DNA of 64,000 bases from Actinoplanes sp. TBRC 11911. Lineage in GTDB: Bacteria; Actinomycetota; Actinomycetes; Mycobacteriales; Micromonosporaceae. Within the stretch, counting starts at the first letter, position 1. Each line of letters opens with the position of its first letter. The notes under the pieces were generated by a model. That model searched no databases. It had not been told where the DNA came from and saw only the letters and a list, made by a program, of their open reading frames with translations. Of this stretch, positions 1 to 6,630 are shown one piece after another. Position numbers and translations under genes: made by a program. The stretch lies in assembly GCF_012933445.1 (NCBI RefSeq), contig NZ_JABBNC010000004.1, positions 62,001 to 126,000 of the forward strand. The letters are read 5' to 3'.

Positions 1-826
1 GGAACGCGATCGCCTGCCGGGCCGCCAGCGGCTTGCCGAACGTGACCCGCTTCTGGGCGTGCTCGACGGCGAGCTCCTGCGCCCGCCGCGCCAGCCCGAC
101 GCAGGTCATCGCCACCGAGATCCGGCTGGGGGTGAGGAAGCCGCCGAGCGCGACCTCCAGGCCCTGGCCGACCTCGCCGAGCCGGTTCGCCACCGGCACC
201 GGGGCGCGGTCGAAGAACATGTGCGCGTGGTCGGTGCCGCGCACGCCCATGGTCTCGGCCATCTCCTCGACCCGGACGCCCGGCGTGTTCCGGTCGACCA
301 TCAGCGCGACCGTGCCGTCCTTGCCGGTGGTGCCGGCGAGGCGAGCGAACAGCAGCCAGTAGTCGCAGTTCACGCCGAAGGTGATCAGGTGCTTCTCGCC
401 GGACAGGTAATAGGTGTCGCCCTCCTGCTCCACACTGCAGCGGAGGTCGGCGCCGGTGCCCGCGGTCGGCTCGGTGAGCGTGAACGCCACTGTCTTGTCC
501 GCGGCGACCTGCGGCAGCACGAACTGCTTGCGCTGCTCGTCGGTCGCGAACTGGTCGATCGCCCGCCAGATGCCGTTGTGCACGTGCACGATCATGCGGA
601 TCGACGCGTGCGACATCGAGAACAGCTCCATCAGCTCGAGGTAGCGCGCGAACGGTATGCCCCGCCCGCCGTACTCCTCGGGGGCGGCGAGCCGAAGGTA
701 GCCGCGGTCACGAAGCTCGGCCTTGAGACCGGACGGCACCTGATGGGTGCGCTCGATCTCCTCGGCATAAGCCTCGCCGGGTCCGCGGACCCACTCCTCG
801 ATCTCCGCCGAAAGCTGTTCCATCAT
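1..826 (-). CDS. Acyl-CoA dehydrogenase (3' part outside window)
   Basis: Flavin-dependent acyl-CoA dehydrogenase that would introduce an alpha,beta double bond into an acyl-CoA. At least 275 residues are visible. The N-terminal helical domain is followed by the middle beta domain with FTLTEPTAGTGADL, the usual FAD-contacting stretch. The C-terminal domain with the catalytic Glu lies beyond base 1. The ATG at 826 overlaps the stop of the upstream gene as ATGA, so the two are translationally coupled. Beside an EPSPS-like/CoA-ligase fusion it could act on a cyclohexene- or cyclohexadiene-carboxyl-CoA (inference). A general fatty-acid role cannot be excluded because the rest of the operon is not in view. 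Confidence 0.85.
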   Translation of the reverse strand, partial: MMEQLSAEIEEWVRGPGEAYAEEIERTHQVPSGLKAELRDRGYLRLAAPEEYGGRGIPFARYLELMELFSMSHASIRMIVHVHNGIWRAIDQFATDEQRKQFVLPQVAADKTVAFTLTEPTAGTGADLRCSVEQEGDTYYLSGEKHLITFGVNCDYWLLFARLAGTTGKDGTVALMVDRNTPGVRVEEMAETMGVRGTDHAHMFFDRAPVPVANRLGEVGQGLEVALGGFLTPSRISVAMTCVGLARRAQELAVEHAQKRVTFGKPLAARQAIAF

Positions 827-3771
827 CCGCGGTCCTCGCTCTCCATGGTCTGGACGATCTGCTGCCTCAGCACGAACTTCTGAATCTTGCCGACGGTGTT
901 GCGGGGCAGGTCGTTCACGACTTCCAGCCGTTCCGGCCAGTACTGCTTGGCTACCTTTCGCTCATCGAGGAAGGCTTGCAAGCCAGCGAGATCAAGATCC
1001 CCGTTGAGGACGACAAAGGCGCAGGCGCGCTCGCCCAGACGCGGGTCCGGCATGGCCACGATGGCCACGTCGCGGACCGCCGGGTGGGTGTGCATGAGCT
1101 GCTCGATCTCGGCCACCGGGACCTTCTCGCCACCGCGGTTGACGACGTCCTTGACCCGGCCGTTGATGTGCACGTACCCGGCCTCGTCGATGACCGCGAG
1201 GTCGCCGGTGCGGAAGTAGCCGTCCGGGGTCAGCGCCTCGGCGGTCCACTCCGGGTGGTCCAGGTACCCGATGAACATGGTCGGGTTGTGGACCTCGTAG
1301 TTGCCCTCCTGGCCGGGCGCGAGCACGTTGCCGTCGTCGTCGGTGATGCGCAGCTTGATGCCGGCCAGCGCGCGGCCGTCGGTGCCCCACATCTTGGCCG
1401 GGTCGTCGCCCGGCGCGGATAGCGAACCCAGGCAGGACTCGGTGGAACCCCAGGCGCCGCAGACCGAGGCGCCGAGCGTGCGGGTGGCGCGCTCGGCCAG
1501 CCCGCGCGGGACGACGGTGCCGGTGGCTACGAAGATGCGCAGGGCGTCCGGCCGCTCGCCGGTCTCGTCCACCGCCTCCACCAGGTCGTTCAGGAACGGC
1601 GTGGCGGCCTGTACGAAGGTGCCACCGTGCCGGCGCAGGGCGGACAACGCTGTCCGGCCGTCCCAGACCGGCTGCACGATCGACGGCACGCCACGCACGA
1701 TGGCGACCCACATCCCGTACAGGAATCCGGTCTGGTGGGCCAAGGGTGAGGGGATGAAGACCCGGTCGGACTCGGTGAGGCCGAGGTGGCGGATCTCCAT
1801 GGCGGCGGCGCGGGTGAGCGCCTCCATCCGGTGCAGCACGCCCTTGGGCTCGCCCGAGGTGCCGGAGGTGAACAGCAGCTGGGCCGCGTCCTCGGTGCGG
1901 ACGGCGGGCGTCTCGGTCAGCGGGTTACGCGCCTGCTCGGCGAAGTCGTGCCAGCGCACACCGCCGCCGGACGGCAGGCTGGACCCGCCGATGACGATGA
2001 CGTGTTCGAGCGAGGTGCTCGTGTCGGAGAGCAGCGCCTGGATCTCGGCGGGGTAGTCGCGGCCCCGGAAACTCGTCGGTACCACCATGACGCGGGCCTT
2101 GGAGCGCTGCAGCATGAAGGCGACCTCGCGCTGCCGGAAGATCGGCATGAGCGGGGTGCTGACCGCGCCGATCCGGGCGATCGCCATCGCGAGGGCCACG
2201 AACTCGGCGCGGTTCGGGAGCTGGTAGGCAACCGGCTCCCCCGGTTGCACGCCCAGCTCCACCAGGTTGGCGGCGATGCGGTCGGCCTCGGCGTCGAGCT
2301 CACGCCAGTTCATGTGACGGTCCGTGCCGACCTCGATGACGGCCGGCTCGGTAGGCTTCTCGAGCGCCCACCGGCGTACGTAATCGGCGATGGGGGTCTG
2401 CGCGGCCTTGGCCGGCGTGATCGCCGGCGGGCCTTCGGCCTTGGCCTGCGGTTGGGTCCGCTTGCCGCCGGGTGCGGTGTGCATGAACAGGCCGACGCCG
2501 TTCATCTCGTCCAGGAAGCGGGGGTAGGAGATGCGGTACGCGTTCGGGTAGGTCAGGCGGGTTTCGCCCTCGGCCCGGGTGCCCGCCACGGCGAGGGCCA
2601 TCAGGACCCGGTGGTCGTTGAAGCTGGACAGGTCGACCCCGGTCAGATCGCCGTCGATGCCGTGGATTTTGAGGTAGTCGTCGCGCTGCTCCAGGTTGGC
2701 GCCCATGCGGTTGAGTTGCAGCATGGCCGAGACCCGGTCGGATTCCTTGAGGCGTACGTGGGCGACGTTGCGCAAAGTTGTCGTGCCGTCGGCAAACGTG
2801 GACAGCACCGACAACACCGGCAGCATGTCGGGTACACGCCGGCAGTCGACGTCGGTGGGCTTGAGCCGGATGCCGTCGTGCTGGACCCGGACCAGGCCGG
2901 TGGCTTCGTCGCGGGTCATGGGCAGGCCCATGTCGCGGACGATGCCGACCAGGTCGGCTTCGGGGTGGTCGATCGAGTCGACGTCTTCGACGTAGGGCAG
3001 GCCGCCGAACAGTACGTTCGCGGGGTGTAGCGCGGAGACGGCGAGGCCGAACGCGGCGGCGCCGATGTCCGGCGGCAGGGTGACGTCGGCCGGGTGCGGG
3101 GTCTGGTTGCCTTCGATTTCGAAGCGGCGGTCCTTCTCGACTTCGGTGACGTGCAGGCCGAAGTCGGCCATCATCCGGATCGTCAGGTCGATGTAGGTGC
3201 GTTCGTTGAGGTCGCCGTCGATGATGACGGTGCTGTTGCCTTCGGCGAACGGGGCGATCAGCAGTAGTGCGGAGATCCACTGGGAGAGGGTGCCGGCGAT
3301 GTGTACCTCGCCGCCGGTGGGCCGTTTCGGGGTGACCGAGATCGGTGGGCAGTCGTCGGGTGATTCCAACTTGACGCCCAGCCCCCGCAACGCGTTGAGC
3401 AGTGGCCCGATCGGGCGGCGCTGGAAGTATTTCTGCCCGACGACCGTCACCGGCTTCTCGGCCAGCGCCATCAGCCCGGTCATGAAGTACAGGGTGGTGC
3501 CGGAGCTGCCGACCGAGATTTCGTCGGCGTTCGGCTTATAGGTGCCGCCGTGCACGACGAAGTCGTCGCCGTCGACGTCGATGCGGACGCCGAGGTGGCG
3601 CAGCGTGGAGATGGTGTGCCGGACGTGGCCGGCGTCGGAGAGTCCGCGGATCCGGCTGGTGCCGGGTGCGAGGGATCCGAGTATGAGTGCGCGATGCGCG
3701 TGGTATTTCGAGTTAGGAATGATCAGCCGACCCTCGACCGGTCCAACCGCCTGCTTGATGAGCAGCCGCAC
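823..3771 (-). CDS. Fusion: EPSP-synthase-like domain + acyl-CoA ligase
   Basis: A 982-residue two-domain protein. Residues 1-425 are an AroA (EPSP synthase) fold with NSKYHAHR (20-27), GSSGTT (88-93), VPD (313-315), LKESDR (341-346) and NDHR (385-388). Residues 430-462 look like a linker. Residues 463-982 are an ANL adenylate-forming ligase with LLFTSGTSGEPKG, a GSTE motif, YFRTGDL and a C-terminal PRNTVGKIQK that supplies the catalytic Lys. By eye against E. coli AroA, the Lys, Asp and Glu of the active site are kept. The PEP-contacting Arg100, Arg124 and Lys411 appear replaced (Tyr95, Tyr115, Ile414). This suggests shikimate dehydration followed by CoA activation, as in cyclohexanecarboxyl-CoA biosynthesis. 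GTG start with AAGGAGG nine bases upstream. The housekeeping AroA should lie elsewhere. Confidence 0.9.
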   Translation of the reverse strand: MRLLIKQAVGPVEGRLIIPNSKYHAHRALILGSLAPGTSRIRGLSDAGHVRHTISTLRHLGVRIDVDGDDFVVHGGTYKPNADEISVGSSGTTLYFMTGLMALAEKPVTVVGQKYFQRRPIGPLLNALRGLGVKLESPDDCPPISVTPKRPTGGEVHIAGTLSQWISALLLIAPFAEGNSTVIIDGDLNERTYIDLTIRMMADFGLHVTEVEKDRRFEIEGNQTPHPADVTLPPDIGAAAFGLAVSALHPANVLFGGLPYVEDVDSIDHPEADLVGIVRDMGLPMTRDEATGLVRVQHDGIRLKPTDVDCRRVPDMLPVLSVLSTFADGTTTLRNVAHVRLKESDRVSAMLQLNRMGANLEQRDDYLKIHGIDGDLTGVDLSSFNDHRVLMALAVAGTRAEGETRLTYPNAYRISYPRFLDEMNGVGLFMHTAPGGKRTQPQAKAEGPPAITPAKAAQTPIADYVRRWALEKPTEPAVIEVGTDRHMNWRELDAEADRIAANLVELGVQPGEPVAYQLPNRAEFVALAMAIARIGAVSTPLMPIFRQREVAFMLQRSKARVMVVPTSFRGRDYPAEIQALLSDTSTSLEHVIVIGGSSLPSGGGVRWHDFAEQARNPLTETPAVRTEDAAQLLFTSGTSGEPKGVLHRMEALTRAAAMEIRHLGLTESDRVFIPSPLAHQTGFLYGMWVAIVRGVPSIVQPVWDGRTALSALRRHGGTFVQAATPFLNDLVEAVDETGERPDALRIFVATGTVVPRGLAERATRTLGASVCGAWGSTESCLGSLSAPGDDPAKMWGTDGRALAGIKLRITDDDGNVLAPGQEGNYEVHNPTMFIGYLDHPEWTAEALTPDGYFRTGDLAVIDEAGYVHINGRVKDVVNRGGEKVPVAEIEQLMHTHPAVRDVAIVAMPDPRLGERACAFVVLNGDLDLAGLQAFLDERKVAKQYWPERLEVVNDLPRNTVGKIQKFVLRQQIVQTMESEDRG

Positions 3772-3795
3772 AGCCGCATTCCTCCTTATGTAGCA

Positions 3796-6198: not shown

Positions 6199-6630
6199 AT
6201 GAGTACCATTCGTCCAACGACCGTCGAGGTCGAGACCTCGCTGCGGCTCGTAGCGCCTGACGCAACGGCCCTGCCCGTGCGCGCCAGTCTGCGGTACGAC
6301 CCAGCGGACCCGTATGCGGTGCACGTGTTGTTTCACGCGGAATCAGCCGGTGGGGAAGCCGTGAGCTGGTCCTTCGCGCGGGAACTGCTCGTGACCGGGC
6401 TCGATGAGCCGGCGGGTATCGGCGACGTCAGGGTGTGGCCGTGGGCCACTCCCCGGGGGGATTTCGTCGCCCTCGCACTGTCGTCTCCGGACGGCAATGC
6501 GTTGTTCGAAGTGCCCCGCAGTGTCCTCGTCCGATTCCTCCGGCGCACCTATGTCGTGGTGCCGCGCGGCCGGGAATCCGAGCATTTGGACGTGGATGCG
6601 GCGGTAAACAGGTTGTTAGCCGGACGTTAG
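6199..6630 (+). CDS. ssgB: SsgA-family sporulation/cell-division protein, probably SsgB
   Basis: A 143-residue SsgA-like protein. In Streptomyces SsgB recruits FtsZ and positions sporulation septa with SsgA. The N-terminal stretch running through LRYDPADPYAVHV, then SWSFARELLV, GDVRVWPW and ALSSPDG, matches the SsgB core. The family usually has 130-145 residues. ATG with GGGGGGAG about seven bases upstream, followed by a strong terminator, so it is monocistronic. It indicates a sporulating or filamentous actinomycete. Assignment to SsgB rather than another SALP rests on the overall pattern only. Confidence 0.9.
   Translation: MSTIRPTTVEVETSLRLVAPDATALPVRASLRYDPADPYAVHVLFHAESAGGEAVSWSFARELLVTGLDEPAGIGDVRVWPWATPRGDFVALALSSPDGNALFEVPRSVLVRFLRRTYVVVPRGRESEHLDVDAAVNRLLAGR

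Follow-up and report, generated by a model that had tools for sequence, protein, structure and literature searches.

The stretch analysed here, called the window, comprises 64,000 nucleotides of Actinoplanes sp. TBRC 11911 (contig NZ_JABBNC010000004.1, positions 62,001 to 126,000). Near its left end a single open frame on the minus strand joins a domain resembling 5-enolpyruvylshikimate-3-phosphate synthase (EPSPS, the product of aroA) to an acyl-CoA ligase of the ANL type that spans residues 466-962 overall. The next gene, on the same strand, encodes an acyl-CoA dehydrogenase (ACAD) that runs off the left end of the window and overlaps the fusion gene by 4 bp. The features are as follows.

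823..3771, minus strand: EPSPS-like/acyl-CoA ligase fusion of the PlmJK/AnsJK type, 982 aa, GTG start
2503..3750, minus strand: EPSPS-like domain, residues 8-423 (Pfam EPSP_synthase PF00275, 280.7 bits)
1261..2376, minus strand: AMP-binding domain of the ANL ligase, residues 466-837 (Pfam AMP-binding, 233.1 bits)
886..1110, minus strand: C-terminal domain of the ANL ligase, residues 888-962, with the GKIQK lysine motif (Pfam AMP-binding_C)
3781..3787, minus strand: AAGGAGG, a ribosome-binding-like sequence 9 bases ahead of the fusion GTG
1..826, minus strand: acyl-CoA dehydrogenase (PlmL-like), 372 aa, EGTNEI motif; whole gene at L005:17708-18826

A preliminary description of this DNA had proposed both the single-frame fusion and the neighbouring dehydrogenase, and the Pfam domains and the 4-bp overlap bear out both. 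The EPSPS half scores above the NCBIfam aroA cut-off (311.7 versus 287.25 bits), while the ligase half is best matched by the NCBIfam model of cyclohexanecarboxylate-CoA ligase (TIGR03208, 475.3 bits), whose cut-off of 792.3 bits is not reached. Because a congener, G006, carries a fusion that is 54% identical (530 matches over 974 aligned positions) and 55% identical if its EPSPS-like domain is taken alone, the joined frame is not an artefact of assembly. Four PF00275 genes are present in the genome, which totals 9.66 Mb in 97 contigs (G000) and is scored as 100% complete: an intact aroA on contig C12, two genes that appear MurA-like by eye (C27 and C3), and the fusion. The preliminary description would have counted itself refuted had the fusion been the organism's sole AroA, with EPSPS activity; the sole AroA it is not.

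To examine the active site, we aligned the EPSPS-like domain and 81 relatives (80 loci, described below, and G006) with 12 AroA-type references, consisting of E. coli K-12 AroA, the AroA of the window genome itself and ten matches found in further genomes; E. coli numbering is used throughout. K22, R27, G96, R124, S170, Q171, Y200, D313, K340, E341 and R344 are kept in all 82 family members, and H385 and R386 in 81, the remaining member having a gap. The shikimate-side and catalytic residues K22, R27, D313, E341, R344 and R386 are therefore retained, in keeping with the preliminary description. Other positions are altered in every member: S23 is replaced by Tyr, S25 by Ala, N26 by His, R100 by Tyr and S197 by Glu, and S169 is removed by a one-residue deletion. 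K411 is Ile in 79 members, including the window protein, Gly in two and a gap in one. S23, R100, R124, S169, S197 and K411 are present in all 12 references, none of which shows the family signature of S23Y, R100Y, S169 deletion and S197E (82 of 82) with K411I (79 of 82).

We take R100 to be a contact on the phosphoenolpyruvate (PEP) side. The preliminary description had all three basic PEP contacts replaced; this holds for R100 and K411, but of the three R124 is still present, as Arg throughout the 82 family members (Arg119 in the window protein). The alignment rules out its loss and so counts in part against the preliminary description, which had named the presence of these residues as a refutation. 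In an excerpt of PMC3411725, Lys22, Arg124 and Lys411 are said to dominate the glyphosate/PEP site of EPSP synthase.

The changes at S23, S169 and S197 had no place in the preliminary description. We presume these serines to belong to the shikimate-3-phosphate (S3P) side and, as in structure 1g6s, to the part of the site that holds the carboxylate and the 3-phosphate of the substrate. On that assumption, their alteration is the stronger argument for unphosphorylated shikimate as the substrate, since an invariant Glu replaces a presumed phosphate-binding Ser at S197.

The operon continues leftward from the dehydrogenase on the same strand. Its third gene encodes a ChcA-like short-chain dehydrogenase/reductase (SDR) of the FabL type, 262 aa long, with a YX6K motif common to 61 of the 67 proteins of the same cluster; we take this motif, and EGTNEI in the dehydrogenase, to be catalytic marks. 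The fourth gene, 9 bp farther on, encodes a second SDR (SDR2, 249 aa, YXXXK). Next come an EamA-like protein, a protein of 227 aa that matches no Pfam family, a fusion of PAP2 and wax-ester-synthase domains, and a divergent PucR-type regulator. Beyond the regulator lie an HpnC-like gene (by eye) and an HpnD gene, both of the squalene/phytoene-synthase type, HpnE, a polyprenyl synthase and a squalene-hopene cyclase, followed by an HpnG-IspH-like fusion, HpnH and DXS. These hopanoid-type genes are situated approximately 7-15 kb downstream of the ACAD gene. The preliminary description had placed the cluster fed by the pathway to the left of the window, where a ChcA-type reductase and a polyketide synthase (PKS) were to be sought. 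The reductase is there, but the remainder of the flank consists of an additional SDR, membrane and wax-ester-synthase-like genes and the hopanoid cluster, and no PKS is found among the annotated genes of C34:44001-62000 (genes farther left were called, not annotated).

Three of these neighbours were considered as pathway genes and rejected on comparison with the 80 loci: SDR2 has no close relative there (best 30-35%), the EamA-like protein has no good counterpart near the other operons (30% identity to one L083 gene), and neither has the PAP2-wax-ester-synthase fusion. The last of these is a 676-aa protein on the minus strand (L005:12363-14393; C34:56363-58393) that combines PAP2 phosphatase and wax-ester-synthase/DGAT domains and has no match at E ≤ 1e-60 among 22 relatives. 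Within the hopanoid cluster, a 469-aa frame at L005:3692-5101 joins a weak HpnG-like segment (32.7 bits) to IspH (LytB). On the other side of the operon, an SsgA-family sporulation/cell division protein is encoded close by, on the plus strand of the window (6199-6630).

Whole-genome searches for ketosynthase (KS) and acyltransferase (AT) domains found no type I PKS in the assembly. The single AT match (PF00698, 59.7 bits) is of the FabD type and lies beside FabH and FabF on C3, and among the KS domains three genes score strongly (161-194 bits), the four other PF00109 matches being weak and partial (24-30 bits). Since the sole AT is FabD-type and the KS genes are single or weak and partial, we conclude that a modular PKS is absent from the assembly. 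One KS gene, FabF2 (C3:2543-3769), shares 73% identity with the FabF located after the operon of locus L025, while none of 22 relatives has a KS more than 48% identical to it. FabF2 is followed by a ligase gene (ANL2), which the genes in the corresponding position of seven Streptomyces operons, behind their own FabF2, match at 64-67% identity. Because FabF2 and this ligase on C3 match the Streptomyces operon order, the pathway appears to be split over two contigs in this genome.

To place the operon in a wider context, we scanned the GTDB species genomes with two EPSPS domains of the genus, which yielded 162 relatives; the best 80 were taken as loci L025-L104 with flanks of at most 10 kb (28 of the 80 are shorter than 21 kb). 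Together with the window genome and G006 they give 82 gene sets. Genes were called by a simple script, some genes are truncated at contig ends, and the motif expressions missed some fused ligases and ACADs. The ligase is fused in the same frame in 68 of the 80 loci. In eight of the 12 other loci, four of the Herbiconiux type and four from Gammaproteobacteria, the ligase is a gene or gene fragment of its own; the remaining ones are Gammaproteobacteria L095 (no ligase match), the broken L101, whose apparently frame-shifted row was kept, and Streptomyces L027 and L030. Across the 82 gene sets an ACAD occurs in 70, an SDR in 60 and a PlmM-type FMN oxidoreductase likewise in 60, the last being common but not universal in the flanks examined. 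All five functions (EPSPS, ligase, ACAD, SDR and FMN oxidoreductase) are encoded in Herbiconiux solani (L099), and in Kitasatospora mediocidica (L098) two FabH genes stand immediately upstream of the operon.

FabF2 accompanies the operon in many, not all, of these genomes. It is adjacent in 17 of the 80 loci. A second KS type, approximately 37% identical to FabF2, lies directly upstream of the EPSPS-like gene in 15 others (L035, L044, L053, L056 and 11 more), which come from Eremiobacterota, Gammaproteobacteria metagenome-assembled genomes (MAGs) and one other bacterial MAG. The adjacent KS genes of L028 and L104 were rejected as FabF2, being at most 47% identical to any other KS compared. Neither KS type adjoins the operon in the remaining 48 loci; in 18 of these we looked for an unlinked FabF2, which was found at 61-76% identity in nine. 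In the genus of G049 (Arthrobacter pullicola; 29 genomes), FabF2 is present in 20 of 20 carriers of the fusion and in one of nine non-carriers (Fisher p 2.1e-6, uncorrected for phylogeny); in all 20 carriers it lies on another contig or far off on the same contig.

Secondary-metabolite genes adjoin the operon in several loci. Genes of the 3-amino-5-hydroxybenzoic acid (AHBA) type occur beside it in five Streptomyces loci (L045, L058, L060, L068 and L078). In L060 a protein of the AHBA phosphatase family TIGR01454 scores above cut-off and a class II DAHP-synthase-like gene adjoins, as would be expected of an ansatrienin-type cluster. PKS genes adjoin the operon in L092, in G006, where a type I PKS gene immediately precedes the orthologous fusion, and in Kutzneria L026, where a type I PKS with KS, AT and carrier domains (L026:16915-21264) stands directly past it. 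A nonribosomal peptide synthetase (NRPS) gene lies approximately 3 kb upstream of the operon in Lentzea L104. Frames of more than 1200 aa account for the PKS of L026 and L092, the NRPS of L104 and, in part, the PKS of G006 (one of its two such frames), whereas in those of L063, L067, L072, L080, L090, L093 and L100 no domain of either enzyme type was found at E ≤ 1e-10; the annotation covered the frames of this length other than that of L081 and the second of G006.

Three further observations concern the relatives. Streptomyces L027 (10001-11356) and L030 (10124-11356) encode stand-alone EPSPS-like members of the family (65-67% identity). Within 10 kb of them there is no match to the ligase, the ACAD, the SDR or the FMN oxidoreductase, so that they perhaps represent a different use of the same domain. 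In nine Arthrobacter/Sinomonas loci (L033, L034, L050, L067, L084, L090, L094, L100 and L103) the operon is near ribosomal-protein genes (named by eye), with an EF-Tu-like gene on its other side in all but L033; in the seven Arthrobacter loci among the nine no ChcA-like SDR was seen. Near the PKS gene and the EPSPS-ligase fusion of G006, a gene at L023:6083-8407 joins an HMG-CoA reductase to an APH-family phosphotransferase.

A quick LG+G4 tree of the 82 rows, rooted at the midpoint so that direction is not shown, was labelled with context groups of our own, which left 31 rows ungrouped. Seven labelled PKS/AHBA-linked rows, with the unlabelled L097, form one supported group nested among FabF2-linked Streptomyces. 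The window protein belongs to another group (starred), with L025, L026, L027, L028 and L030. A single nested clade of PKS-linked members is ruled out by the PKS-linked Kutzneria L026 and by the approximately unbiased test, which rejects the eight PKS/AHBA rows as one clade (p 1.2e-95); parsimony needs two changes between PKS and FabF2 labels. PKS linkage therefore arose or was kept at least twice.

On balance, and with slightly better than even confidence, we favour the view that a PlmJK-type enzyme starts a pathway from shikimate to cyclohexanecarboxyl-CoA (CHC-CoA), which here primes omega-cyclohexyl (or partly reduced) fatty acids and not an antibiotic. The proposal of fatty-acid priming draws on the absence of PKS genes, on the presence of FabF2 and on its co-occurrence with the operon in the Arthrobacter genus. 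The chemistry and lipid product that we infer would run as follows. The EPSPS-like domain would bind unphosphorylated shikimate instead of S3P and PEP, and its retained acid/base residues would eliminate water from it. The fused ligase, to judge from its family, would turn the resulting ring acid into a CoA thioester, on which the acyl-CoA dehydrogenase and the YX6K ChcA-like SDR would perform the ring redox steps. The CoA ester would then prime type II fatty acid synthesis in this organism, with FabF2 as a dedicated ketosynthase extending the chains to omega-cyclohexyl (or partly reduced) fatty acids.

Several observations weigh against this view. On the tree, the window row is a long branch, its nearest neighbour by path is the Kutzneria protein, which is PKS-linked and comes without FabF2, and its near neighbours L027 and L030 have no partner genes nearby. 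FabF2 is on a different contig from the fusion operon in the window genome. Nine of the 18 operon genomes examined for an unlinked FabF2 contain nothing more than 48% identical to it, the negatives being Kutzneria, two Sinomonas, Lentzea, an Actinomycetota MAG, Herbiconiux oxytropis, S. sioyaensis, Paractinoplanes and Kitasatospora mediocidica. Conversely, G070, from the genus of G049, has FabF2 without the EPSPS-like fusion, which may reflect loss, an assembly gap or another substrate. Herbiconiux oxytropis (L080) lacks FabF2, its flank shows neither an SDR nor an FMN oxidoreductase, and no cyclohexyl acid is among the fatty acids listed as predominant in it. Finally, a PlmM homologue was not found in the window genome (best match 43 bits, partial), which leaves complete reduction of the ring to CHC-CoA in doubt.

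This last point bears on an alternative that is compatible with a lipid product and that we consider possible, if rather unlikely, namely that the operon makes another ring acyl-CoA, unsaturated or hydroxylated. Besides the missing PlmM, the YXXXK-type SDR2 immediately after the ChcA-like gene would fit such a product. Other Actinomycetota, however, likewise show no operon-adjacent PlmM (for example L036, L040 and L046), another reductase could substitute for it, and SDR2, as noted above, is without a close counterpart among the 80 loci.

The choice of water as the leaving group may also be questioned, since phosphate is the better one. Chorismate synthase catalyses a 1,4-elimination of phosphate, and the EPSPS-like domain might do likewise with S3P, for which R27, R124, K340 and S170 are retained. 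We regard this as improbable: S169 is deleted and S197 is Glu throughout the family, and an acid at the presumed phosphate site would be expected to repel phosphate.

It is quite unlikely, in our estimation, that the hopanoid cluster and the CHC operon constitute a single membrane-stress module. Their proximity points that way, as does A. acidocaldarius, which according to an excerpt of PMC3035248 produces both hopanoids and omega-cyclohexyl lipids. A divergent PucR-type regulator nevertheless separates the two gene groups here, and no hopanoid-gene match (E ≤ 1e-10) occurs in the 80 loci, a weak search given that flanks of at most 10 kb end about where the first hopanoid gene lies in the window genome.

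Supply of a CHC-CoA starter to a modular PKS of an antibiotic cluster is what the PKS genes beside the operon in G006 and Kutzneria, the latter nearest on the tree, and the AHBA-linked Streptomyces loci would suggest. For this assembly it is largely refuted, and very improbable, in view of the lipid and hopanoid genes of the left flank and of a genome scored as complete with one FabD-type AT and three single KS genes. A functional second EPSP synthase fused to a ligase by chance can hardly be credited even though the domain passes the aroA cut-off, since R100 and K411 are gone, the presumed phosphate site is altered and an intact AroA is encoded on C12.

Beyond this genome, we tentatively suggest, at somewhat less than an even chance, that the CHC-CoA operon is fundamentally a membrane-lipid system of many soil bacteria and no mere accessory to antibiotic production, and that polyketide clusters recruited it at least twice. 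Under this proposal an EPSP synthase stripped of its PEP and phosphate sites would have become a shikimate dehydratase fused to a CoA ligase, and the matched fatty acid synthase ketosynthase would be FabF2 or, in Eremiobacterota and the Gammaproteobacteria MAGs, the second KS type. Omega-cyclohexyl lipids would then have been overlooked in many soil bacteria. The association with FabF2 predicts producers among common Arthrobacter species and uncultured Eremiobacterota, and suggests a fatty-acid setting for CHC operons outside antibiotic clusters. The family-wide residue pattern makes the first CHC-CoA step directly testable, by offering the enzyme shikimate or S3P with and without PEP, and the gene set may serve for cyclohexyl starter-unit production. 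What is new here is a genome free of both PKS and PlmM that carries the operon together with an operon-type FabF2; our literature search recognised no publication that ties FabF2 to CHC operons or describes the EPSPS-like step, and PMC6351551, PMC8000086 and PMC10295569 yielded nothing on CHC biosynthetic genes.

Among known systems, AroA belongs to the same domain family as the EPSPS-like half of the fusion, and the two have most of the shikimate-ring and acid/base residues in common; the fusion differs in that, of the three basic residues on the PEP side, two are lost together with the presumed 3-phosphate site, and in the attached CoA ligase. The TIGR03208 cyclohexanecarboxylate-CoA ligase is the best model for that ligase, yet the score is so far under the cut-off that the window ligase represents a different subfamily.

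The proposed primer and product, the co-occurrence of a fatty-acid ketosynthase with the operon in many genomes and the hopanoid genes recall the omega-cyclohexyl pathway of Alicyclobacillus; PMC3035248 cites De Rosa 1972 on the formation of these acids from shikimate. The 80 loci include none from Alicyclobacillus. According to PMC3035248 and PMC10562698 the fatty acids of this genus are mainly omega-alicyclic, and the former gives omega-cyclohexyl acids as the principal ones. In Herbiconiux, the genus of L099 with its full gene set, cyclohexyl-C17:0 "may be present" according to an excerpt of PMC10011130.

The ansatrienin-type Streptomyces loci, a name that we infer, share the gene order of fused EPSPS-ligase, then ACAD, then SDR, with an FMN oxidoreductase after the SDR; the window protein, by contrast, falls elsewhere in the tree, and neither AHBA nor PKS genes lie near its gene. 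A close parallel is the phoslactomycin-lactomycin CHC-CoA pathway (PlmJK/PnP1/LmP1), for which an excerpt of PMC5852498 lists plmJK, plmL, chcA and plmM in that order, with JK of the ligase type and plmL of the ACAD type followed by ChcA. The window genome differs in the absence of plmM and a PKS, and in having FabF2 and ANL2 on another contig. The CHC-CoA-type pathway on shikimate put forward in the preliminary description is supported by this order of fusion, ACAD and SDR and by the same fusion beside AHBA genes in L060 and PKS genes in G006 and L092. PlmJK is probably the same fused protein, as its name and the fused relatives at PKS/AHBA loci suggest. With a gene order that matches plmJK-plmL-chcA, a single-protein entry for PlmJK in that list and fusion in 68 of the 80 loci, the operon is of a known kind and the fusion very probably not new.

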